Virus record (IMG/VR): IMGVR_UViG_3300035120_000150
Location: 1 to 32,286 of that record
Direction: 5' to 3' (one strand)
Length of the DNA stretch: 32,286 nucleotides
DNA from: a virus
This document shows positions 2,430-12,218 of this stretch, in pieces. The translations under genes and the position numbers were made by a program. Under the pieces are notes generated by a model that did not search any database, was not told the DNA's origin, and saw nothing but the letters and a program-made list of their open reading frames with translations. Every line of letters begins with the position of its first letter. Positions within the stretch are counted from its first letter, which is position 1.

Positions 2430-2956
2430 CGACGCCCCCCGATAAGCCATTTAACTTCGCCGACATTTCCAAATCCCCTGAGCCGTACAAACGCAAGTCG
2501 CGGGCAAAGAACCCGGACTATCCCAGCAAGGGCGGCCGGCCGCACGGCGCGCTGAATAAGCGAACCATCGCGGCGATCGAGAAAGCCAAGGCGAACGCGC
2601 CGGTCGTGCAGAAACTGTCGCTGACGAGTCTGCGCGAGACCGCGCGCTATCTCGGCTCGGCGATGGCGCTCAAGCAGCCGTGGGAACCGGACGGCTCGCC
2701 GCGCCCTGGCGGCGACTACAAAGTATTCATGGATCTTGCCGTGCTGCAGCTGCGATACCTCGAGGCGATCACGCCGTACGAGGCGCCGCGACTGGCGGCG
2801 ATCGCGATGGTGCCGCAGGGCGAGCGGCAGCGCACGATCGTGAACGTCACGATCCTCGACGAGCGCGGCGGCAAGGTGTTTAGCGACGAGACGATCGACG
2901 GCGAGGCGACGGCGATCGAGGATCAGCGTCCTGGTGATGAAGAAAAAGTGGCGTGA
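2426..2956 (+). CDS. Probable terminase small subunit or related packaging protein
   Basis: The 176-residue protein starts with ATG overlapping the methyltransferase stop (ATGA) and ends overlapping the large terminase start, so the three are translationally coupled. It contains GGRPHGALNKRT near residues 33-44, a G-R-P-x-G-x-x-N-K phrase typical of small DNA-binding phage proteins found just before large terminases. A charged, Lys-rich helix follows, and the C-terminus is acidic. Position immediately before the large terminase is the main support for a small terminase (DNA recognition) role; the sequence alone does not prove it. An alternative is a DUF5681-like accessory protein. Confidence 0.55.
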   Translation: MTTPPDKPFNFADISKSPEPYKRKSRAKNPDYPSKGGRPHGALNKRTIAAIEKAKANAPVVQKLSLTSLRETARYLGSAMALKQPWEPDGSPRPGGDYKVFMDLAVLQLRYLEAITPYEAPRLAAIAMVPQGERQRTIVNVTILDERGGKVFSDETIDGEATAIEDQRPGDEEKVA

Positions 2957-4224
2957 TGCTCGACCGAGTACCGCGCGAGATCATCTATCGGCGGCCGCCG
3001 CTCTACGAGAAGCAGCGCGCGGCCATGTTCGATCCAACGCGCATCTCGCTGATTGAGGCCAGCACCAAGAGCGGCAAGACGGTCTCGGGTATCATCTGGC
3101 TTTACGAGAAGGCGCTGCAGGGCACGGCGGGACAAAACTTCTGGTGGGTTGCTCCGGTTTCTATACAGGCGCGCATTGCGTTTAATCGCATGCGGCAGAA
3201 CTTCCTCGATCAGGACGGGCGATCGGTATTCATGGTCAACGTGGCTGATCATACGCTCACCAACGAGCGCGGTGCGGTGATTGCGTTTCGTTCAGGTGAT
3301 CATCCTGACACGCTCTACGGCGAGGACGTCCACGCCGCGGTGATTGACGAGGCGTCGCGCTTCAAGGAGGAAAGCTGGCACGCGATTCGGTCGACCTTGA
3401 CGGCGACGCGCGGGCCGATCCGGATCATCGGCAACGTCAAAGGCCGCAGGAATTGGTTCTACAAGCTGGCACGCACAGCTGAAGCCGGCTTTCCCAATCT
3501 CGCGTATCACAAGCTCACCGCCTATGATGCGGTGGAAGCGGGTGTGTTGGCTGACGCAGAGATCGAGTCGGCGAAGTCGATGCTGCCGGACCATGTGTTC
3601 CGCGAGCTCTACCTCGCCGAGCCGAGCGACGACGAAGGCAATCCGTTTGGTGCCGAGCATATTCGCGCCTGCATCGCGCCGCTGTCCGGCAAGCCGGCGG
3701 TAGCGTGGGGTTGGGATCTGGCGCGCAAGCAGGACTGGACGGTGGGCATCGGGCTTGATGCCGAGGGCTGCGTCGCCATTGCGCTGCGGTTTCAGAAACC
3801 GTGGTCGGAACAAGTCAAGATCATCAAGAAGTTCGTCGGCAGGACGCCGGCGTTGATCGACGAGACCGGCGTCGGCGACCCGATCGTTGAGGCGATCAAG
3901 CGCCCAGATCACGGCGAACGCGGAAACGGCGCGGAGATCTACCAACTGTCATGCCCGCGGCTCGAGGGATTTCGGTTCACCAGCGCATCCAAGCAGATGC
4001 TGATGGAAGGTCTGGCGCTGGCGATCCACGAACGCAAGGTGCGCTTTCCGCAAGGGCCAATCAGCATCGAGTTGGATAACTTCGAATATGAATTCACGCG
4101 GCTTGGTGTTCGATATTCGGCGCCTCCCGGTATGCATGACGACTGCGTTTGCGCGCTCGCGCTGGCGTGGGCGTGCTTCGAGCGCAAGAAGCGCGGATAC
4201 AATCTCGACGCCATGGCCAGCTGA
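2956..4224 (+). CDS. Phage terminase large subunit
   Basis: The ATPase and nuclease that packages DNA into procapsids. Counting from ATG 2956, the Walker A variant EASTKSGKT is at 34-42 and Walker B AAVIDEAS at 127-134. An RNase H-like nuclease domain starts at WGWDLARKQDW (Asp254) and ends with an HDD at 394-396, giving the usual acidic metal-binding set. At 422 residues it is of normal length. GTG 2953 is also in frame, but ATG 2956 overlaps the upstream stop as TGATG, the junction style used throughout this operon. The portal follows 12 bases later. Confidence 0.93.
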   Translation: MLDRVPREIIYRRPPLYEKQRAAMFDPTRISLIEASTKSGKTVSGIIWLYEKALQGTAGQNFWWVAPVSIQARIAFNRMRQNFLDQDGRSVFMVNVADHTLTNERGAVIAFRSGDHPDTLYGEDVHAAVIDEASRFKEESWHAIRSTLTATRGPIRIIGNVKGRRNWFYKLARTAEAGFPNLAYHKLTAYDAVEAGVLADAEIESAKSMLPDHVFRELYLAEPSDDEGNPFGAEHIRACIAPLSGKPAVAWGWDLARKQDWTVGIGLDAEGCVAIALRFQKPWSEQVKIIKKFVGRTPALIDETGVGDPIVEAIKRPDHGERGNGAEIYQLSCPRLEGFRFTSASKQMLMEGLALAIHERKVRFPQGPISIELDNFEYEFTRLGVRYSAPPGMHDDCVCALALAWACFERKKRGYNLDAMAS

Positions 4225-4236
4225 GGATCGCACCTG

Positions 4237-5733
4237 ATGGGCGTCGTCACAAAACTGCGCGACGGGATGCAGAATCTGCTCGCCGGCCTCGGCGTGCCGG
4301 GCCGCGACAAGTTTGCCTCGCAGACCTACATCTTCAATCCGATGTCGCTGGCTGAGTGCGAGATCGCCTATCGCGGCGACTGGATCGCGCGCAAGTGCGT
4401 CGATATTCCGGCCTTTGACATGACGCGGGAATGGCGGGCGTGGCAGGCCGATCAGGATCAGATCACCAAGCTCGAGATGTGCGAGCGAGGCCTGTTCGTC
4501 CAGATGAAGGTCCAGCAGGCGCTTGTCAAAGCACGGCTGTACGGCGGCTCGGTTATTGTCATTGGTGTCGAATCCGGCAATCCAGAAGAGGAACTCGATC
4601 CTGAGTCGGTCGGCGAGGGCGATCTCAAGTTCCTGCATGTGGTCCCGTGGCACTATTTGTCGATGGGAGATATTGTCTGGGACGTGACGTCGCCGTACTG
4701 GGGACAGCCGAGCTGGTATCAGTTGCAGGCGACCGCACCGCGTTTTGGCGGGATGAATACGGCAAGCGCCCGCGCTGCATCGTTCGAGAAAAATCCAGGC
4801 TCGCAAGTACAACTGCATCCCTCGCGGGTCGTGCGCTTCGTCGGACTGCCGCCGCCGGACATCCTGCGGTCGTCGACCATGTCATTCGGCGACAGCGTCC
4901 TGCAGCCGATCAACGACACGATTAAAGCCTGTGGAATGATAGCTGGCTCGTTGGCGACGCTGATCTCGGAGATGAAGCTCGACGTCGTCAAGGTGCCGAA
5001 CCTGAGCGAGGAGTTGTCGACGCAAACCGGGACCGACAAGATTATCAGTCGGTTCAGCAACGCGAACGTCGCCAAGTCGATCATCAACACCATTCTGCTC
5101 GACTCGAGCGAGGAGTGGCAGCGCATCGGGACCAATTTGGCCGGAGCGGAGGCGTTGCTCACGGCGTATCTGCAGATTGCGTCGGGTGCCGCGGATATTC
5201 CGGCCTCGCGGTTTCTGGGTCTTCCGCACCGCGGCCTCAACACGACCGGCGAGGCGGATTTTCGGAATTACTACGATCGCCTGGCGAGCGAGCAGTCGGT
5301 GAACCTGACCCCGGCGCTGAACATTCTCGACGAGGTGCTGATTCGTTCGTCGCTGGGCAACCGGCCGGACGAAATCTATTACGAGTGGAATTCGCTGTGG
5401 CAGCAGACCGACAGCGAGAAGGCCGATCTCGCTCTCAAGAAGGCGCAGGCGTACAAGGTAGACGTGGATGCGGGCCAGATCCCGCTGACCGCTCTGGCGC
5501 ACGCGCGCATCAATCAATTGATCGAGGACGGGTTCTATCCTGGGCTCGAGCAGGCGCTCGAGGACGCGGCGTCCGAGGGCGATACGGTCGAGGAGCAGAA
5601 CGCGCCGCAGCCCGAGCCGACTGGGACGGTGTTGGTGGCGGGTGCGCATCTGCCGCCGCCCGATCCGAATGCGCCGCCGGCTGATCCCAACGCTGCCTTA
5701 CTGCCGCCGCCGATGCCGGCACCGAACGCTTGA
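4237..5733 (+). CDS. Phage portal protein (DUF1073-type)
   Basis: The 498-residue product has the portal layout: an early segment on proteins whose two lysis-side residues include GDWIARKCVDIPAFDMTREW (about 48-67), then LFVQMKVQQALVKARLYGGS, PWHYLS, and a long central helix region from SVLQPINDTIKACGMIAG. It ends in a Pro-rich low-complexity tail (from about 455). Portals form the dodecameric ring at the capsid vertex through which DNA passes and on which terminase docks. The gene lies directly after the large terminase, as expected. Some members of this superfamily carry or resemble the Acb1 anti-CBASS phosphodiesterase, but I see no paired H-x-T/S motifs in the C-terminal tail. The next gene starts 35 bases downstream. 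Confidence 0.85.
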   Translation: MGVVTKLRDGMQNLLAGLGVPGRDKFASQTYIFNPMSLAECEIAYRGDWIARKCVDIPAFDMTREWRAWQADQDQITKLEMCERGLFVQMKVQQALVKARLYGGSVIVIGVESGNPEEELDPESVGEGDLKFLHVVPWHYLSMGDIVWDVTSPYWGQPSWYQLQATAPRFGGMNTASARAASFEKNPGSQVQLHPSRVVRFVGLPPPDILRSSTMSFGDSVLQPINDTIKACGMIAGSLATLISEMKLDVVKVPNLSEELSTQTGTDKIISRFSNANVAKSIINTILLDSSEEWQRIGTNLAGAEALLTAYLQIASGAADIPASRFLGLPHRGLNTTGEADFRNYYDRLASEQSVNLTPALNILDEVLIRSSLGNRPDEIYYEWNSLWQQTDSEKADLALKKAQAYKVDVDAGQIPLTALAHARINQLIEDGFYPGLEQALEDAASEGDTVEEQNAPQPEPTGTVLVAGAHLPPPDPNAPPADPNAALLPPPMPAPNA

Positions 5734-5768
5734 GCAACAACTACCTTCAACCAACGGAGAATAAACCT

Positions 5769-6449
5769 ATGAAGAGAGTTTTGGCTACGACCGCCATCCT
5801 GGCGGCGCTCACTCTGCCGGCTGCGGCCACCGTTCTAGACTGGAACTTCCAGGACCATCTCGGCGTGCTGGGCAACACCCAGACCTTCACTGCGGGTGGG
5901 GACAACCTCACTGCGCGAGGGTTCACGTCCAGCGATGCTGGGACTGCCCTGTTCGGCAAGAACGGTGGCGGCGACGAGAACGGCCTCGGCCTCAACAACG
6001 ATGCGTCAGGCGATCACGAGATCACCGGCGGTAACTTCGTCCAGCTCAACCTGGACGGCATCAAGAACCTGCTGGACCCCAACAGCATCATGGTCCAGAT
6101 GGGGTCGACCACCCAGAACGAAGGCTGGCAGATATTTGGCAGCAATGACGACCATCCGTTCCAGTTCACCCTGCTCGCGTCCTCCACCGATCCCGGTGGC
6201 CAGGAGGGCTTCCACAGCCTGGCCGGTGGCTACGACAACTACAACTTCTTCTACAGCGGTCTTGGCGTCAACCTATGCGGCTCCGGCTGCAACGCCAACG
6301 TGCTCCTGACCAACTTCGACGCCACCTTGGCGGCCACCACCCCGCTCCCGGCGAGCTTGCCGTTCTTCGCCGCCGGCTTGCTGGGCTTGGCCGGGCTGAC
6401 GCGGTCGCTGCGCCGGCAGTGCCGAGGCGATGCCACGGCATCAGCATAG
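5769..6449 (+). CDS. PEP-CTERM sorting-domain secreted protein
   Basis: The ATG at 5769 is preceded by GGAG at 5756-5759 and gives an immediate signal peptide (KR then a hydrophobic stretch to about residue 19, cleavage after a AAA). A TTG further upstream in frame would bury it. The mature part is Gly/Asn/Asp-rich with several aromatic residues and a single Cys pair near 175-180. The C-terminus carries a PEP-CTERM signal: PLPASLP from 192, a hydrophobic helix, then the basic cluster RSLRR. Such proteins are recognised by exosortase, cut and displayed or released at the surface in bacteria with exopolysaccharide. The 226-residue protein has no resemblance to head or tail proteins, so it is probably cargo acquired from a bacterium. 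Its ending RQCRGDATASA is longer than usual after the basic cluster. Confidence 0.8.
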   Translation: MKRVLATTAILAALTLPAAATVLDWNFQDHLGVLGNTQTFTAGGDNLTARGFTSSDAGTALFGKNGGGDENGLGLNNDASGDHEITGGNFVQLNLDGIKNLLDPNSIMVQMGSTTQNEGWQIFGSNDDHPFQFTLLASSTDPGGQEGFHSLAGGYDNYNFFYSGLGVNLCGSGCNANVLLTNFDATLAATTPLPASLPFFAAGLLGLAGLTRSLRRQCRGDATASA

Positions 6450-6576
6450 GAAGCGGCGGCACGAGGTTCATGCCTACTGGCGTGTAATTCGTAATAAGGA
6501 CGGCAGCGTCAAAAAGCGTATTCGAGTTGATAGCTACAAGCGCGGAAACGCAAACCTGAGGCCTAAAGCGAAATAG
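6430..6576 (+). CDS. Small basic protein, 48 residues
   Basis: The ATG at 6430 lies inside the last codons of the PEP-CTERM gene in another frame (20-base overlap), with GAGG just before it. The 48-residue product is very basic and ends TAG at 6576. Its middle, AYWRVIRNKDGSVKKRIRV followed by DSYKRG, has the alternation of Arg/Lys and beta-prone residues seen in small phage proteins and in linkers of phage head proteins. A function cannot be assigned; nucleic-acid binding is a guess from charge. It is below the size many gene finders keep. Confidence 0.5.
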   Translation: MPRHQHRKRRHEVHAYWRVIRNKDGSVKKRIRVDSYKRGNANLRPKAK

Positions 6577-6621
6577 AGTCCCGCCCCGCTGATCCATCCA
6601 TCAATGCTCAGTAGGCAGGAA

Positions 6622-6672
6622 GGCCCACCGGGAGCATCCCTGTGTACCATCACCATGTCTCTCCGGTGGGCC
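6622..6672. repeat. Inverted repeat between cargo genes and head operon
   Basis: Arms GGCCCACCGG (6622-6631) and CCGGTGGGCC (6663-6672) are perfect complements around a 31-nt loop. There is no T-run after the second arm, so a classical intrinsic terminator is not supported. It lies in the non-coding gap 6577-6698, just before the next gene. It may mark the border of the inserted PEP-CTERM segment or control read-through. Confidence 0.5.
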
Positions 6673-6698
6673 ACCAAATTTGATGCAGAGGTAACACG

Positions 6699-7070
6699 AT
6701 GACCTTGCAGGTTCTAAACGGCCCTTTCATACAAGCTGGCGAGTCGTTGTCGGACGCCGTCGACTGCAGCCCCGGCGAATTGGTGCGCCTCACCATGCCG
6801 GGTGCTTGGTCGGAGGCAGCACCGTTGACGTTTCAGATCAGCACGGACGGCGTGTTCTACAACGATCTATTCACGCTCGACGGCTACGAGGTCACGCTGC
6901 CGGCCGTGGTGCCGGGCGCGGCGGTGCTCGTTTCGCATGATGTCGGGCGGGCAATCGCCTTCATCAAGTTTCGGTCGGGCACACGAGCCGCCCCAATGCC
7001 GCAGCAGGATTTGCGCGAGTTCGCGGTGGCGATCGATGTACCCGATGCTGCGGGAGGCGCCGCTCGGTGA
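6699..7070 (+). CDS. Hypothetical phage protein, probably virion-associated
   Basis: The 123-residue protein follows an AGAGG ribosome site and overlaps the next gene by the GTGA junction. It looks all-beta: alternating hydrophobic residues, TFQISTDGVFYNDLFTL near residues 47-63 and a second half ending in FAVAIDVPDAAGG. No cysteine pair, signal peptide or membrane helix is seen. I do not recognise a named family. Its place between portal and head morphogenesis genes suggests a small capsid or portal accessory protein, which is inference from context. Confidence 0.7.
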   Translation: MTLQVLNGPFIQAGESLSDAVDCSPGELVRLTMPGAWSEAAPLTFQISTDGVFYNDLFTLDGYEVTLPAVVPGAAVLVSHDVGRAIAFIKFRSGTRAAPMPQQDLREFAVAIDVPDAAGGAAR

Positions 7071-8365
7071 GCGATCCCACCGGCACGGCGGGCCTGCGCC
7101 GGTCATTCCTGGCCGAAGGCAATCGCCGCCTGGCGCGGGTGCGCTCGCTGACGCATACGATGCTGGTCGAGTACGATGTGATGGCGGCGCGCGGCGATCC
7201 GCTAGCACAGTTGTTGCCGCATCCGGGTAATCGGCTGGCGGCGTTCATGCAATGGTTCGAGCAGACGGTTAACGCGCAGTTGCTCGGGGGCCGATGGTGG
7301 GAGCGGTTCCTCGAGCGCGCCTATCGCTCTGGATTTGAAGCGGGCAGTGCGCTGACACACACGCCTCCCGGTGCCGCGCCACTGCCGGCGGTGTTCCGCG
7401 AGCTCGCCGGTCGCGAGTTCGCGGGCATCGCGGCGGCCTTGGTGCAGCAGGTGACTCGGCAGGCTGCAGGTGCCGCGCTCGGTCGGCGCAAGCCGCAGCC
7501 GATGTACCGGCGGGTGCTCCCGGTGTTGCGCAAGGTCGGTGACGCACGCGTGCGCTTGGCCACCAACACCTTGACGGTCAAACTGCATAACTCCGGCCGG
7601 TTGGCGCAATTTCGTGCCGCCGGCATCACGCGTGTCGGCATCACGCCGGAACGCCTGGAGCCGCGCAAGCCTTCGCGGTTTCTGAAGCGCGATCACTTGC
7701 AGCACGATCATCGTCTGCACGATCGCGAGACCAAAGTGCAAAGACTGCTTCGTCAGGCGAATGAGTTGCTGGCCGAGCAAAAACGCCAACGGGAGGAAGA
7801 GCAAGCGCAAGCCGAAGCCGAGTTGGAAGCATACAGGACGAGTCTCGCGGCTGAGATAGAATCGCACCAGGCCGGTGGGCTCGTGGCCCAGACTGCGGCG
7901 CAGGCTGAAGCTGAACTAGCGGCAGCGAGTGCGCGGGCCGAGGAGGAAGTGGCTGCAGCCAAAGCCGCTACGGCAGAGCGGGAAGCGGCGGCGGCCGAAG
8001 CCTGGCAGAAAGTCCTCGCCGCCAGAAAAGAGGCAAGGGCGGCAGAGTATGCGGCAAAAGCCGCGGCCAGGGTTGCCGGGAAGGGAGCTGCACAGGCGGC
8101 TGAACAAGCCGTTGCAACTGAGGTCGAGCAGGTTGTTGCACCGGAGCCAGCGGTCGAAGTGGCGGCAGAGGAAGTGAACGTGCAGACCGCGGGCGACGAT
8201 CGTGTCTGCGACGAATGCGACGACATCGCTGCGGCCGGACCCTACTCGCTCGACGAGGCGGAAGACCTGATTCCCGCGCATCCGAATTGCCGCTGTACGT
8301 TTGTACCCGCTGTCGATGACGCCGCCAATGCCGGTCAACTTTCACTCCTGGGAGCTGACGAGTGA
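7067..8365 (+). CDS. Phage head morphogenesis protein (SPP1 gp7-like)
   Basis: The C-terminal 50 residues hold the minor head protein signature: D-x-V-C-D-E-C-D-D, then a P-Y-S-L-D-E-A segment and PAHPNCRCTFVP, a Cys/His set seen in SPP1 gp7 and Mu F-like proteins. These proteins sit inside the head near the portal and help DNA exit or capsid assembly. The N-terminal 250 residues are helical. Residues about 225-370 are a long Ala/Glu/Lys/Gln-rich coiled coil, unusually long, before the signature domain. The GTG start at 7067 overlaps the upstream stop, and the downstream gene starts in a matching GTGA overlap. Confidence 0.82.
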   Translation: MSDPTGTAGLRRSFLAEGNRRLARVRSLTHTMLVEYDVMAARGDPLAQLLPHPGNRLAAFMQWFEQTVNAQLLGGRWWERFLERAYRSGFEAGSALTHTPPGAAPLPAVFRELAGREFAGIAAALVQQVTRQAAGAALGRRKPQPMYRRVLPVLRKVGDARVRLATNTLTVKLHNSGRLAQFRAAGITRVGITPERLEPRKPSRFLKRDHLQHDHRLHDRETKVQRLLRQANELLAEQKRQREEEQAQAEAELEAYRTSLAAEIESHQAGGLVAQTAAQAEAELAAASARAEEEVAAAKAATAEREAAAAEAWQKVLAARKEARAAEYAAKAAARVAGKGAAQAAEQAVATEVEQVVAPEPAVEVAAEEVNVQTAGDDRVCDECDDIAAAGPYSLDEAEDLIPAHPNCRCTFVPAVDDAANAGQLSLLGADE

Positions 8366-8910
8366 CGATCAGCATTCGTTTTGATGGGCCGCCGGCAGCA
8401 GCGCAGGTCGGTGCCAATCTTGCGAAGCACAAGCAGAAAATCCGGCGATCGGTCGATGCTGCGGCGAGGAAACTCGGCAATTCAATCGTAGAAAAAGGTC
8501 GCGCCGACATTGCATCGGCCGGCCAGTTCGGACAGCGCTGGACGCAAGGATTGACCTCTGAAGTCGTCAACGAAGGCGAAGCGCGTACCGTCATCACGAT
8601 CCGGGAGGCGGTTCCCTATTGGCGGGTGTTTCAAGACGGCGCCATTATCCACGGTAAGCCGCTGCTCTGGATTCCGTTGAGCTTTGCGCCCGAGGCACAA
8701 GGTGTTTCGGCAAAGGACTATCCCGGTCGGTTGTTTCGCGTCGACCGCAAATCCGGCGATGCACCGCTATTGTTGTCGGCAGATGATGGCGAGCCCAAAT
8801 ATTTCGGGGCTGAGAGCGTCCGCATCCCGAAGAAGTTCCATTTGCTGGAAATCATCACCGCCGAGTCCAAGACATTCGGCGAGCTGTACCGGGTCGAGAT
8901 GACCAAATAG
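8362..8910 (+). CDS. Phage gp10-like / DUF6441-type head-tail protein
   Basis: A 182-residue protein starting with GTG in a GTGA overlap. The N-terminal region is a basic helix (KHKQKIRRSVDAAARKLGNS), followed by beta segments with VPYWRVFQDGAIIHGKPLLW near residues 85-104, a phrase typical of small phage proteins with the HK97 gp10-like fold. Such proteins bind the tail-terminator side of the neck, or in some phages are minor virion components. Position in the head block agrees with a virion role. The exact family (DUF6441 or gp10-like) is from memory of the pattern, not a search. Confidence 0.55.
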   Translation: MTISIRFDGPPAAAQVGANLAKHKQKIRRSVDAAARKLGNSIVEKGRADIASAGQFGQRWTQGLTSEVVNEGEARTVITIREAVPYWRVFQDGAIIHGKPLLWIPLSFAPEAQGVSAKDYPGRLFRVDRKSGDAPLLLSADDGEPKYFGAESVRIPKKFHLLEIITAESKTFGELYRVEMTK

Positions 8911-8927
8911 CACGAAAGGAACAGGCC

Positions 8928-9176
8928 ATGTCGTTAAGCGGCCTTGTGTTAGGCATCATCAACGTCGCGATCGTCGTCGCCATCCTGCTGCTTGTGGGCG
9001 CGGTCATCCTGTGGTTCTGCAGTTGGATCGGGTTTGCCGTCCCCGACATGGTGCGCAAGCTCTACATCGCGGTGGTCGCGCTGATCGGACTCTATATGCT
9101 GGTGGCATTGGCGTTCGGCATCCCGTCGATCCGCATCATATCGCATGCGGGCCTGGTGGCGCTGGCGCTGACCTAA
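8928..9176 (+). CDS. Small membrane protein (82 residues)
   Basis: After an AAAGGAAC ribosome site comes a very hydrophobic protein with a first membrane helix at about 7-37 and a second at about 45-65, and a third short hydrophobic end (LVALALT). It overlaps the following tiny membrane gene by TAATG. Sitting between the gp10-like and protease genes is odd for a membrane protein. A holin, a superinfection factor or a head-associated membrane protein are possible; the sequence does not decide. Confidence 0.65.
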   Translation: MSLSGLVLGIINVAIVVAILLLVGAVILWFCSWIGFAVPDMVRKLYIAVVALIGLYMLVALAFGIPSIRIISHAGLVALALT

Positions 9177-9310
9177 TGCCCAGCGGCCGGCACTTTTTCT
9201 TTTCCGTATTCGTACTGGTCGTGGCCGCGATGCTTGCGCTTGCGGCCTACGGCTATTTCAGCGGCGCGTGGGACCGCAATCCGATCGCGCCACCAGCCAT
9301 AGTCGACTGA
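9176..9310 (+). CDS. Small single-helix membrane protein (44 residues)
   Basis: This ORF begins with ATG inside the stop of the previous gene (TAATG). It has a basic start (PSGRH), one membrane helix at about 7-27 (FFFSVFVLVVAAMLALAAYG), and a short polar tail ending PPAIVD. It is translationally coupled to the upstream membrane gene, so the two probably work together. Function is unknown. It ends 12 bases before the next gene. Confidence 0.6.
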   Translation: MPSGRHFFFSVFVLVVAAMLALAAYGYFSGAWDRNPIAPPAIVD

Positions 9311-9322
9311 AAGGTCACGCCC

Positions 9323-10687
9323 ATGATCATGCTCGACAGGATCGAGGTCGAGGAGCGCTGCGACCTCAACGACGCCGGCGCCAAAATGCGGATTACTGAA
9401 GACGGCTATCTGGTGGCGTCGCCGCGCATCGCCCGCACCGGCATCCAGCTTTACAGCGGCCACGAGGTGGGCCGCGACGACCTCGAGGTGGTGCGGGTCT
9501 ATCGGCCAGCCGAGCAGGTATTCAACAAGGCGGCAATGGCATCGCTGGCCTGGCGGCCGGTCACGCTCGATCATCCTGACGACGCAGTTACCGCGAAAAA
9601 CTGGAAGCAGCTTGCCGTCGGGTATGTCACCGGCAAGGTCGCCCGCGACGGTGACTATATCGAAGTGCCGCTGGCGCTCATGGATCACGCTGCGATCACC
9701 GCGGTGCAGAACGGCCATGCGCAGTTGAGCGTCGGATACGGCGCGAAGCTCGTGTGGGGCGACGGTGTCACGCCGGCCGGCGAACCGTATGACGCGATGC
9801 AGACCGACATCCGCGCCAACCATGTCGCCATCGTCAAGATGGCGCGCGGCGGCGACAAGCTCAAGATCGGTGACGACAAGACAACCGACCGCGAGTTCTC
9901 GACGGCTGAGCGCGAGAAGGCGGCCGAGAAAGGCCAGGCGATGCCCGGTGGCGGCTTCCCGATCAAATCGGAAAAGGATTTGCGCAACGCGATTCAGGCT
10001 GTCGGGCGCGCCAAGGACCCGGCAGCCGCTAAGGCGCATATCAAGAAACGGGCGAAGGCTTTGGGCCTGACATCGCTTATTCCCAAGCAATGGGGCGATG
10101 CCGCCCCCGGAAAGGAGAAGGTCATGACTACCAAGACAATCGATGGCGTGCAGATCGAGCTCGAGGACAAGGACGGTCAAATCCTCGACCGTTACCTCGG
10201 GACCTTGCAAAGCAAGCTCGCCGACAGCGAGAAGAAACTGGGCGAGTTGACGGCGCAAGTCGCCACGCTCGGCAAAAGCCTCGAGACCAAGGATGGCGAA
10301 GTCATTGGCCTGACCAAGAAGCTGGCCGATGCCGAATGGACGCCGCAGAAACGCGACCAGGCCATTCGCGACAGCATGGAAATCTTCGACCGCGCGCGCC
10401 GCGTGCTCGGGGACAAGCTGGTCACTGACGGAAAGAGCGACATCCAGATCAAGCGTGAAGTCGTCGCCGCCGAGATCGGGGACGAAGAAGCCAAGGCAAT
10501 GTCGGACGAGGCCATCGCCGGCGTATTCAGCGCCGTCACGCGACAGGTCAAGAAGGACGGCTTCCAGCGCACAGTGAGTGCGTTGTCGCAGCCATTGTCG
10601 GCGGCGTCGAATTTGACGCCGTCCCAGGCCGCCTACGCAAAGTACGTCGACAGCCTAAACAACGCCTACAAGGCCAAGAGCGCGTAA
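9323..10687 (+). CDS. DUF2213-type capsid maturation protease with scaffold region
   Basis: Three parts are seen in the 454 residues. Residues 1-190 are DUF2213-like, including SLAWRPVTLDHPDDAV and HAQLSVGYGAKLVW, in the position of a capsid maturation protease. Residues about 195-255 are a DUF6582-like segment (KDPAAAKAHIKKRAKALGL). Residues about 268-454 are a charged coiled-coil region typical of scaffolds, with LGTLQSKLADSEKKLGEL. ATG 9323 follows AAAGG, and ATG 9329 is also in frame. A protease-scaffold fusion that is auto-cleaved during head assembly is the usual logic for such genes. An internal start at 10124 gives a free scaffold. The stop lies in a tandem duplication. Confidence 0.8.
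   Translation: MIMLDRIEVEERCDLNDAGAKMRITEDGYLVASPRIARTGIQLYSGHEVGRDDLEVVRVYRPAEQVFNKAAMASLAWRPVTLDHPDDAVTAKNWKQLAVGYVTGKVARDGDYIEVPLALMDHAAITAVQNGHAQLSVGYGAKLVWGDGVTPAGEPYDAMQTDIRANHVAIVKMARGGDKLKIGDDKTTDREFSTAEREKAAEKGQAMPGGGFPIKSEKDLRNAIQAVGRAKDPAAAKAHIKKRAKALGLTSLIPKQWGDAAPGKEKVMTTKTIDGVQIELEDKDGQILDRYLGTLQSKLADSEKKLGELTAQVATLGKSLETKDGEVIGLTKKLADAEWTPQKRDQAIRDSMEIFDRARRVLGDKLVTDGKSDIQIKREVVAAEIGDEEAKAMSDEAIAGVFSAVTRQVKKDGFQRTVSALSQPLSAASNLTPSQAAYAKYVDSLNNAYKAKSA
10124..10687 (+). CDS. Nested in-frame scaffold protein (internal start)
   Basis: ATG 10124 is in frame with the protease gene (its residue 268) and is preceded by AAAGGAG at 10111-10117, six bases away, a better ribosome site than the one of the full-length gene. 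The product would be 187 residues, all helical, coiled-coil, acidic and basic mixed: a stand-alone scaffold. This is the same logic as C/Nu3 in lambda, where an internal start makes extra scaffold. Evidence is the ribosome site, frame and domain boundary. Confidence 0.65.
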   Translation: MTTKTIDGVQIELEDKDGQILDRYLGTLQSKLADSEKKLGELTAQVATLGKSLETKDGEVIGLTKKLADAEWTPQKRDQAIRDSMEIFDRARRVLGDKLVTDGKSDIQIKREVVAAEIGDEEAKAMSDEAIAGVFSAVTRQVKKDGFQRTVSALSQPLSAASNLTPSQAAYAKYVDSLNNAYKAKSA

Positions 10688-10750: not shown

Positions 10751-11221
10751 ATGCCTGCTGTTCAAACTACTTATTCCGCGACGCTTCAGCCTGGCCTGGA
10801 AGGCCAGATCGCCAGCATGCTCGACGACGATGATGTCGAAACGCGACTCTGCGAAACTGCCGCTGGCATCGCATTCGGGCGCGCGGTGTCGGAAGGCACC
10901 AACGCGCGCGGCGCGGTGCTCGGCGGGGCTACCAAGTTCATCGGCATCACGATCATCGATACTACCCTGATCATCAAATCCGGCCAGACCGTCGATCTTT
11001 ATCAGCAGCGCGACAGCATGGCGGTGTTGAATGAGGGTGATGTCTGGGTGCGCCCGGTAGCGGCCGTCACGCACGGCTCGCCGGCGACCTACGACTCAAC
11101 CACCGGTCAGCTCAATCCTGTTGCTGCCGGCGTGGCCATTCCGGCCTCGCGCTACATCACATCGGCCAGCGCCGGGCAGCTCGCAGTGCTGCGGCTGACC
11201 GCAACCGCTCCGGGTGCGTAA
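10751..11221 (+). CDS. Structural cement (head decoration) protein
   Basis: The 156-residue protein follows a strong GAAAGGAGG site. It looks like the structural cement protein type: N-terminal MPAVQTTYSATLQPGLEGQI, then a body of beta strands with DTTLIIKSGQTVDLYQQRDSM and GDVWVRPVAA in the middle, and GVAIPASRYITSA at the C-terminus. It stabilises capsid hexamer or pentamer junctions in homologous phages. It precedes the capsid gene, the normal order. Its stop lies in a short imperfect direct repeat. Confidence 0.75.
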   Translation: MPAVQTTYSATLQPGLEGQIASMLDDDDVETRLCETAAGIAFGRAVSEGTNARGAVLGGATKFIGITIIDTTLIIKSGQTVDLYQQRDSMAVLNEGDVWVRPVAAVTHGSPATYDSTTGQLNPVAAGVAIPASRYITSASAGQLAVLRLTATAPGA

Positions 11222-11236
11222 CCGCTCCGGGTGCCT
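11203..11236 (+). repeat. 17-bp imperfect tandem repeat at cement gene stop
   Basis: Two copies of a 17-base unit (AACCGCTCCGGGTGCGT at 11203-11219 and the same with one change at 11220-11236) meet at the TAA of the cement gene. It resembles, in position, the tandem duplication at the end of the previous gene. Confidence 0.9.
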
Positions 11237-11264
11237 AACCCAGCATAAGGATGGAGACACCGAG

Positions 11265-12218
11265 ATGAATTACCAATTCGGCGATGCTGCCCAACAGGCG
11301 CTCAGCTTTGTGGTGCAGCAGGCGCAATACATCGAACCTCAAGTTTATGAGGTGGCCTATCCGGAAATCCAATACCCGAACCTTGTGCCGATCGATTCGT
11401 CAGGAAACGAATGGATGAAATCGATCGCGTTCTTGTCGCTCGACAAGGTCGGCCAGGCAAACTGGTTCAATCATCTTGCGGCGGATGTCCCGTTCGCAGA
11501 TGTCATGCTCAACAAATTCGAGCAGGGCATCGAAATGGCGGCTATCGGCTACTACTGGACTCTCGAGGAGACCGGCCAGGAAGCGATGATTTCCGGCCCC
11601 ACCATCAACAGAGTCATGGAACGCGCCAATGCTGCGCGTCGAGCCTCCGAGGAAATGATCGATCGCATCGCATTCTTCGGCGATACGACCAAGGGCTGGA
11701 CCGGCCTCACCAACGACCCGAACGTCACGATCACCGGCGCGCCGGCGGATGGCACCGGCTCTTCGGCGTTGTGGTCGACCAAGACCGCCAACCAGATGGC
11801 CCGCGACATCAATTTGATCTTGTCCGGGGTCTACACCGCATCGTTGACCACCGAGATTGCGGACACGCTGTTGCTGCCGCCGGATCGGTTCACCGCGCTG
11901 GCGCAATCGCTGGTCACCAATACGGCGGTGACCGGGCTCAATCTCGTGCAGCAGGGCAACGCCTACACCGCGTTGTCCGGCAATCCGCTGACGATCCGCA
12001 CAGTGCGCGGACTGGAGACCGCGGGCGCCGGTGGCGTCGCGCGTGCGATCGCCTACCGCCGCGATCCGCAGATCCTCAAACTGCATCTGCCGATGCCGTT
12101 CAACTTTCGCTCGCCGATGCAGGTCACGGCGCTCCGGTTCGACGTTCCCGGCATCTTCCGAACCGGCGGCGTCGAGGTGCGGCGGCCAAAGTCGATGCAG
12201 TACTTGGACGGAATCTAA
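11265..12218 (+). CDS. Major capsid protein (DUF2184-type)
   Basis: ATG 11265 follows AAGGATGGAG and fits the typical start MNYQFGDAAQQAL; a GTG 51 bases earlier is in frame but inside the repeat. The 317-residue protein has DUF2184-style features: VPIDSSGNEW, LEETGQEAMI, the central RRASEEMIDRIAFFGD, LLLPPDRFTALAQ, and the end LPMPFNFRSPMQVTA. It forms the icosahedral shell in the HK97 fold. It follows protease/scaffold and cement genes, the standard head order. DUF2184 assignment is by pattern recognition. Confidence 0.85.
   Translation: MNYQFGDAAQQALSFVVQQAQYIEPQVYEVAYPEIQYPNLVPIDSSGNEWMKSIAFLSLDKVGQANWFNHLAADVPFADVMLNKFEQGIEMAAIGYYWTLEETGQEAMISGPTINRVMERANAARRASEEMIDRIAFFGDTTKGWTGLTNDPNVTITGAPADGTGSSALWSTKTANQMARDINLILSGVYTASLTTEIADTLLLPPDRFTALAQSLVTNTAVTGLNLVQQGNAYTALSGNPLTIRTVRGLETAGAGGVARAIAYRRDPQILKLHLPMPFNFRSPMQVTALRFDVPGIFRTGGVEVRRPKSMQYLDGI

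Follow-up and report, generated by a model that had tools for sequence, protein, structure and literature searches.

The gene at 5769-6449 of the window (the whole stretch of viral DNA analyzed here, 32,286 nucleotides, positions 1 to 32,286 of IMG/VR virus record IMGVR_UViG_3300035120_000150) is a modular cassette that recurs across many phages and is no single oddity. The cassette would consist of a signal peptide, an extracellular body and a C-terminal sorting tail, the last two both exchangeable, together with a small basic co-gene and, in the window, a hairpin. Judging from sequence patterns and from comparison among phages, we consider it probable that the gene is a moron of a temperate phage whose product is sorted by exosortase. 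A broader picture, which we advance tentatively, is that phages infecting soil bacteria with exosortase share a mobile cassette for a surface protein. Its bodies and host-specific tails would recombine as modules, accompanied by a microprotein and hairpin of their own, and a phage that changes hosts could thereby re-address the same protein to a new exosortase class.

The elements named in the original prediction, a signal peptide, a PLPASLP motif, a hydrophobic helix and a basic cluster, are all present as sequence patterns in the encoded protein (Table 1). The reading frame runs from an ATG at 5769 to a TAG at 6447-6449. Its N terminus, MKRVLATTAILAALTLPAAA, resembles a signal peptide by eye and by sequence pattern only, and no lipobox cysteine follows it in LTLPAAAT, as read from the translation. 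In the tail, TTPLPASLPFFAAGLLGLAGLTRSLRRQ, the proline motif precedes the helix and the helix precedes the basic cluster (PLPASLPFF-helix-RSLRRQ), the protein ending in TTPLPASLPFFAAGLLGLAGLTRSLRRQCRGDATASA; the F1 body between them has no library match over cut-off. The predicted site between portal and head genes is borne out by the genes on either side, and the phage also encodes a terminase (2953-4224), a protease (9323-10687), a cement protein (10751-11221) and a major capsid protein (11214-12218). The window copy thus sits within a late operon, among late genes; a scan of 5400-7100 that covers sigma-70-like sites, with other promoter types outside it, found no sigma-70-like promoter, and the two observations together give no indication of expression in a lysogen. 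The right-hand neighbor, the 6699-7070 gene, has relatives in the head region of other phage types.

Table 1. Features at and around the gene with the PEP-CTERM-like tail (positions in the window)
Feature	Position	Strand	Basis or remark
Portal protein, left neighbor	4237..5733	+	PF06381, E 2.2e-92
Shine-Dalgarno-like ACGGAG, 9 bases 5' of the ATG	5754..5759	+	Read from sequence
Phage protein with PEP-CTERM/VPLPA-like tail, F1 body, 226 aa	5769..6449	+	ORF call; tail HMM matches below cut-off
Signal-peptide codons, left recombination zone	5769..5828	+	DNA comparison with L022
F1 body, replaced by unrelated F2 body in L018-L025	5832..6332	+	dN/dS 0.06-0.34
C-terminal tail PLPASLPFFAAGLLGLAGLTRSLRRQ..., right recombination zone	6342..6446	+	97% identity to L022 over 6339-6720
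48-aa basic microprotein, overlapping the 3' end of the gene	6430..6576	+	Family seen only next to such genes
GC-rich hairpin, no T-run	6622..6672	+	Similar hairpins behind the gene in other phage types
Head-region gene, right neighbor	6699..7070	+	No PHROG match; no Pfam match over cut-off
Mu F-like minor head protein	7067..8365	+	PHROG head families; Pfam Phage_Mu_F below cut-off

Taken alone, the window protein has weak HMM support as a PEP-CTERM protein: it scores 14.1 bits against the Pfam PEP-CTERM model (cut-off 20.7) and 14.2 bits against TIGR03370 VPLPA-CTERM (cut-off 25.35). Because these scores fall below the curated cut-offs, we describe it as a protein that would work like a PEP-CTERM protein and do not file it as a scored member. 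Relatives in other body families do pass: L117 (F3; 35.4 versus 20.7 in Pfam and 23.3 versus 16 in TIGR02595), L100 (F4; 25.7 versus 20.7 in Pfam) and L099 (F2; 17.9 versus a curated PEP-CTERM cut-off of 16). Those in L004, L015, L018 and L085 (F1 or PLPA-type F2), as well as L095 and L110, stay below the PEP-CTERM cut-offs, and L120 and L101, with tails of the GAG-P-G class that is commonest in F3, match no NCBIfam model at E 0.1.

The pattern is nonetheless far from random. A simple tail pattern (P-x-P, a hydrophobic stretch, basic residues) occurs in 75 of 90 called F1-F5 genes, compared with 6 of the 1568 other genes of 90 aa or more that were called in these loci; adding a signal-peptide pattern gives 57 of 90 versus 1 of 1568. 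We reject a chance ORF. These are counts from a pattern that misses PGP-type tails and from called genes some of whose starts are wrong. The original prediction staked its reading on retention of the motif in homologs, and the sorting-type tail is indeed kept in 106 of the 107 complete F1-F5 phage genes, the single exception being L103, in which the F2 tail is out of frame. There, at about 7917-8753, the frame is lost after PLPAV by comparison with L101, through either mutation or an assembly error.

A scan of the viral collection with the window protein returned 25 loci, 17 with the F1 body and 8 matched by the tail only; the latter carry a different body (F2) in the same place, with portals up to 98% identical. 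Among the 17 F1 contigs beyond the window, L001 and L002 come from the window's own phage and L014 is cut by a contig end. Scans with F2 and F3, the second first met in tandem with F1 in L017, returned 65 and 24 loci, and a tail scan added the bodies F6 (L174, L178), F7 (L175) and F8 (L177, L179), assigned by eye. In total, 106 phage contigs carry F1-F5 (the window, L001 and L002, one phage, counted in), with 107 complete genes and 6 truncated by contig ends; the counts are of stop-to-stop ORFs with repeated loci of one contig removed, and many of the contigs are near-copies. F1, F2 and F3 have no match among 50,697 cultured phage records, and neither F2, F3 nor an F3 tail alone has a match on plasmids. 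Structure models of F1 and F2 have low confidence, with pLDDT of 52.6 and 55.9, and produced no firm match; hits that resemble beta-sandwich folds or carbohydrate-binding modules (Foldseek E at best 2.6e-3 for F1, VIA Z at best 5.4 for F2) were set aside as evidence, the models being poor. A PAGNQPQN..C-x-I-C-G block, which might be a metal or disulfide site, is retained in each of the 15 aligned F2 proteins, and distant F2 versions with 46-47% identity lie in L099 (7944-8711, beside an endolysin) and in L101 (7953-8735, on a podovirus-like 95-kb contig). Genes of these families also occur in pairs, F3 with F1 in L017 (7296-8669) and F3 with F5 in L118-L120 (about 7971-9409), and in L100, L104 and L108 the F2 and F4 genes lie on opposite strands.

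Bodies and tails behave as separate modules. The F2 body occurs with four tail classes (PLPA-type, GAG-P-G, P[VIL]PGAVWLF and EPGSLAI) and the F3 body likewise with four (PLPA, GAG-P-G, PEPSTW and PGAVWLF), the classes being our own and defined by pattern. The same tail, in turn, is found on different bodies within one phage type: on F1 in the window and F2 in L018-L025, on F1 in L009 and F2 in L092, and on F1 in L015 and F3 in L017 and L110. At the DNA level, the window and L022 are 95% identical over 5656-5833, a match that ends just past the signal-peptide codons; they do not align across the body, and 97% identity resumes at the PLPAS codons and extends over 6339-6720. The breakpoints of the exchange thus lie close to the signal-peptide codons and the PLPAS codons. 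Among 60 distinct body-tail entries (complete plus-strand genes of F1, F2, F3 and F5, L103 left out), tails of different-body pairs are on average 0.71 identical where the flanks are similar (28 pairs) versus 0.47 where they are not (1086 pairs); the pairs are not independent, and none of 2000 shuffles of tails within body families reached 0.71. Within the 28 flank-similar pairs, tails are at least 0.84 identical in 11 and below 0.7 in 14, and L009 differs from L084, L088 and L089 in both body and tail (tail identity 0.48). The effect is partly one of the tail and the right flank moving together, as expected from recombination breakpoints alone.

The original prediction proposed comparing close relatives for the gene at this site, and they do not all have it. 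In L032 and L034, the portal stop is followed by 12 bases and then the 6699-type gene, leaving the site between portal and head genes empty, and an F2 gene sits before the portal instead; in L028 and L029, whose portals are 86% identical, no F1-F5 gene was found in the DNA examined. Close relatives thus differ in whether they carry the gene at this site, which lies between conserved genes, as would be expected of a moron. F1-F5 genes occupy at least five genomic settings: (i) between portal and head genes, as in the window; (ii) between terminase and portal (L032, L034) or terminase and head genes (the L058 group); (iii) near recombination genes (a RecE-like exonuclease in L009, YqaJ in L015); (iv) behind an endolysin (the L099 group, within which L100, L104 and L108 have F4 on the opposite strand); and (v) before a helicase gene (L116). 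The podovirus-like contig L101 encodes DNA polymerase A and has no integrase match. Where they occur, F1 bodies are under purifying selection, with dN/dS of 0.06-0.34 across 28 pairs of 8 genes.

Two further elements travel with the gene, the hairpin in only some of the loci. The basic microprotein belongs to a family of 39-48 aa that occupies 39 places in the examined loci, 38 of them at -19 to +278 nt of an F1/F2 stop and the remaining one (L030) following a tail that is truncated at the start of its contig. Across the whole viral collection, a scan for the family gave 36 loci, 35 with an F1 or F2 body at most 1300 nt upstream; the other, L207, is the L030 contig, where the microprotein follows the cut-off tail. 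In the 13 of 21 pairs for which dS was measurable, its dN/dS of 0.07-0.54 supports a coding gene. The family has no Pfam or PHROG match and was not seen beside F3 in the examined loci.

The large inverted repeat noted earlier to the right of the gene is real. The segment 6612-6690 folds at -31.9 kcal/mol (z -2.5), and three hairpins fold better than shuffled versions of themselves, with z from -2.3 to -3.4. A stem pattern built from other loci finds 38 sites in 122 loci, of which 37 lie no more than 300 nt past an F1-F3 stop and one (L030) follows the cut-off tail. This pattern is too narrow to fit the hairpin of the window, which was grouped with 13 others by alignment. By this pattern, occupancy is 11 of 18 loci for F1, 25 of 65 for F2, 1 of 24 for F3 and 0 of 3 for F5, the hairpin being missing from most F3 loci, and by eye a GGCC-type hairpin is present in about half of 33 representatives. 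The stem shows covariation across the 14 hairpins: 5 cells changed on both sides, a count that 0 of 500 shuffles matched; weaker counts are 3 pairs changed on both sides (23 of 500 shuffles) and 7 further pair types (120 of 500). Rfam has no match at the hairpin. An exact long-stem scan of the collection found 17 contigs, 14 with these genes and 3 with unrelated short loops; the latter (L181, L182, L186) we attribute to chance, L181 and L182 lacking a sorting tail upstream and L186 having too little upstream sequence to judge.

The window phage is temperate: a 49.5-kb record (G060) contains it (65 of 65 sampled 40-mers) together with a tyrosine integrase. Of 50 related phage records, 13 have an integrase match, 12 of these over cut-off. 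These records are the larger of 62 contigs and may be fragments; neither in them (0 of 50) nor in the window was an exosortase found, so processing by the host would be needed. The capsid (Rhizobium phages as the best listed match, at 44.8% over 97%; an Acinetobacter phage at 45.9%), the portal (Rhizobium at about 40%, a Xanthomonas phage at 38.6%) and the integrase (Microvirga at 41.6%) lean weakly to Alphaproteobacteria, and a tRNA T-arm pattern search for an attachment site found nothing. Scanning genome contigs with F1 yielded two distant cellular relatives (30-36%), and both of these genomes carry exosortase. In 58 genomes around one of them there are three F1-model matches, the relative itself, one more and G059, the last matched in the tail region only and with a stop inside; 297 genomes of the other relative's phylum gave one weak partial F2 match. 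In one of the two exosortase-bearing genomes, and in a relative, some F1-like domains form part of large proteins that also contain PKD, Ig, SprB and SdrD-like domains; one of these proteins, L049/L142, has no sorting tail.

We posit that the product is exported by the host Sec system and retained in the inner membrane by its tail helix, whereupon host exosortase would cut it and pass it to the surface or exopolysaccharide, where the body could coat or alter the envelope or matrix. Sorting by the host exosortase best accounts for the near-constancy of the tail, the exchange of tail classes and the absence of a phage sorting enzyme. The likeliest benefit would be to keep phages from binding or rebinding the infected cell, its lysogen or debris, with altered aggregation of the host as a lysogen ranked second. 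The role against (re)infection is a first guess, made by analogy with T5 Llp, and, judged on its own, we hold it to be less likely than not.

It is also doubtful that the benefit falls to the host, through a lysogenic conversion in which the protein strengthens biofilm or floc and thereby helps the prophage persist. The temperate lifestyle is consistent with this idea, as are the F1-like domains beside adhesin-type domains in some cellular proteins and the biofilm and floc roles of exosortase/PEP-CTERM systems described in PMC12188702 and PMC9850573. The window copy, however, lies among late genes with no promoter-like site found, and the gene is also present in podovirus-like L101, which lacks an integrase match.

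An improbable alternative is that the tail is a plain membrane anchor that holds the protein in the inner membrane facing the periplasm, for instance as a lysis accessory or an exclusion protein that blocks DNA entry, with no exosortase involved. The sub-cut-off scores of the window tail and the place of the gene among late genes would suit such an anchor, as would the greater divergence of tails than of bodies (dN reaches 0.535 in tails and 0.256 in bodies). Against it, 106 of 107 genes retain a proline motif ahead of the helix, members of F2, F3 and F4 pass curated PEP-CTERM models, and tail classes are exchanged as units, for which a plain anchor would have no need.

More improbable still is a decoy, in which the tail competes for host exosortase and weakens host surface or EPS proteins, easing release or infection. 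Such a decoy could explain why the tail is kept while bodies differ and why tail classes differ between phage types. The conserved body disfavors it as a sufficient account: selection on F1 bodies is purifying, and 44 columns ahead of the tail are invariant across 15 F2 proteins that differ in tail class, which together argue that the body matters. We consider a host gene acquired by chance and carried without phage function, or an assembly artifact, so improbable as to be ruled out; cellular relatives do exist, but the gene recurs in 106 contigs from many samples, is flanked here by head genes, evolves at an F1 dN/dS of 0.06-0.34 and has a linked microprotein. Equally remote is a virion decoration encoded in the head operon, an idea prompted by the position between portal and head genes, since the signal peptide would export the protein away from the compartment of assembly and, in other phages, the gene is found close to genes for recombination, an endolysin or a helicase.

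An exosortase-sorted moron, the reading we prefer, resembles several known systems and departs from each. Phage morons, or lysogenic conversion genes, are extra genes between conserved phage genes, expected to have their own promoter, their own terminator and expression in the lysogen. Here, too, an extra gene lies between conserved genes, is missing there in close relatives and occupies other sites in other phages; unlike a typical moron, it has no promoter-like site that we could find, its product ends in a sorting-type tail and its hairpin lacks a T-run. That hairpin covaries and is not listed by a terminator scan. The envelope-modifying genes known from phages encode mainly lipoproteins, membrane proteins and sugar-modifying enzymes. 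T5 Llp and T1 Cor, for example, are superinfection-exclusion lipoproteins with an N-terminal lipid anchor (PMC9586334). The protein described here would share with Llp a small size, export and a place on the host envelope, its action being proposed only; it differs from both in that no lipobox cysteine was seen and targeting would be C-terminal.

The features used here to recognize a PEP-CTERM protein (motif, helix, basic cluster, signal peptide) follow Haft et al. 2006 (PMC1569441). PEP-CTERM/VPLPA-CTERM proteins likewise combine a signal peptide and a body of little homology with a C-terminal proline motif, helix and basic cluster, and PEP-CTERM genes likewise have no sorting enzyme beside them. 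In contrast to those proteins, ours is encoded by a phage among phage genes, its bodies and tails are exchanged between phages, it has a linked microprotein and often a hairpin, and the window copy scores below the model cut-offs. Closest among virus-borne proteins may be the 13 TIGR03118 proteins that PMC11003980, in the part available, reports in hot-spring viruses, with a putative exosortase interaction domain, and counts as transferred cellular genes; they are a different family by name and, by that description, were counted without modularity, tail exchange or linked parts. Two NCBIfam families match F1 weakly and far below cut-off, XDP1 (NF041927; 18-20.9 bits for F1 proteins, cut-off 125) and floc_PepA (NF033554; 18.8-20 bits for L015 and L004, cut-off 80). 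Passages in PMC12642866, PMC4886054 and PMC3048395 deal with host systems, and PMC12188702 and PMC9850573 with the biofilm and floc roles of exosortase and PEP-CTERM proteins; none of the literature matches listed takes phage-encoded PEP-CTERM proteins as its subject, the scope of the search placing most subscription papers and bioRxiv preprints outside it.

Cassette swapping in a soil phage and in about a hundred contigs suggests that phages may use a sorting machine of their hosts to change the cell surface. If so, a family that uses the C-terminal exosortase pathway of the host would tie phage biology to the poorly understood PEP-CTERM system, and tail exchange between phages would supply natural tests of the fit between tail and exosortase and of surface-protein function, in bacteria whose matrix is the first thing a phage meets. 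Elsewhere in the window, in the packaging region, a gene at 999-2429 fuses a ParB-like domain to a DNA methyltransferase domain (PHROG 498, ParB families) and contains, at 1706-1740, a perfect 17-nt inverted repeat with a 1-nt spacer.
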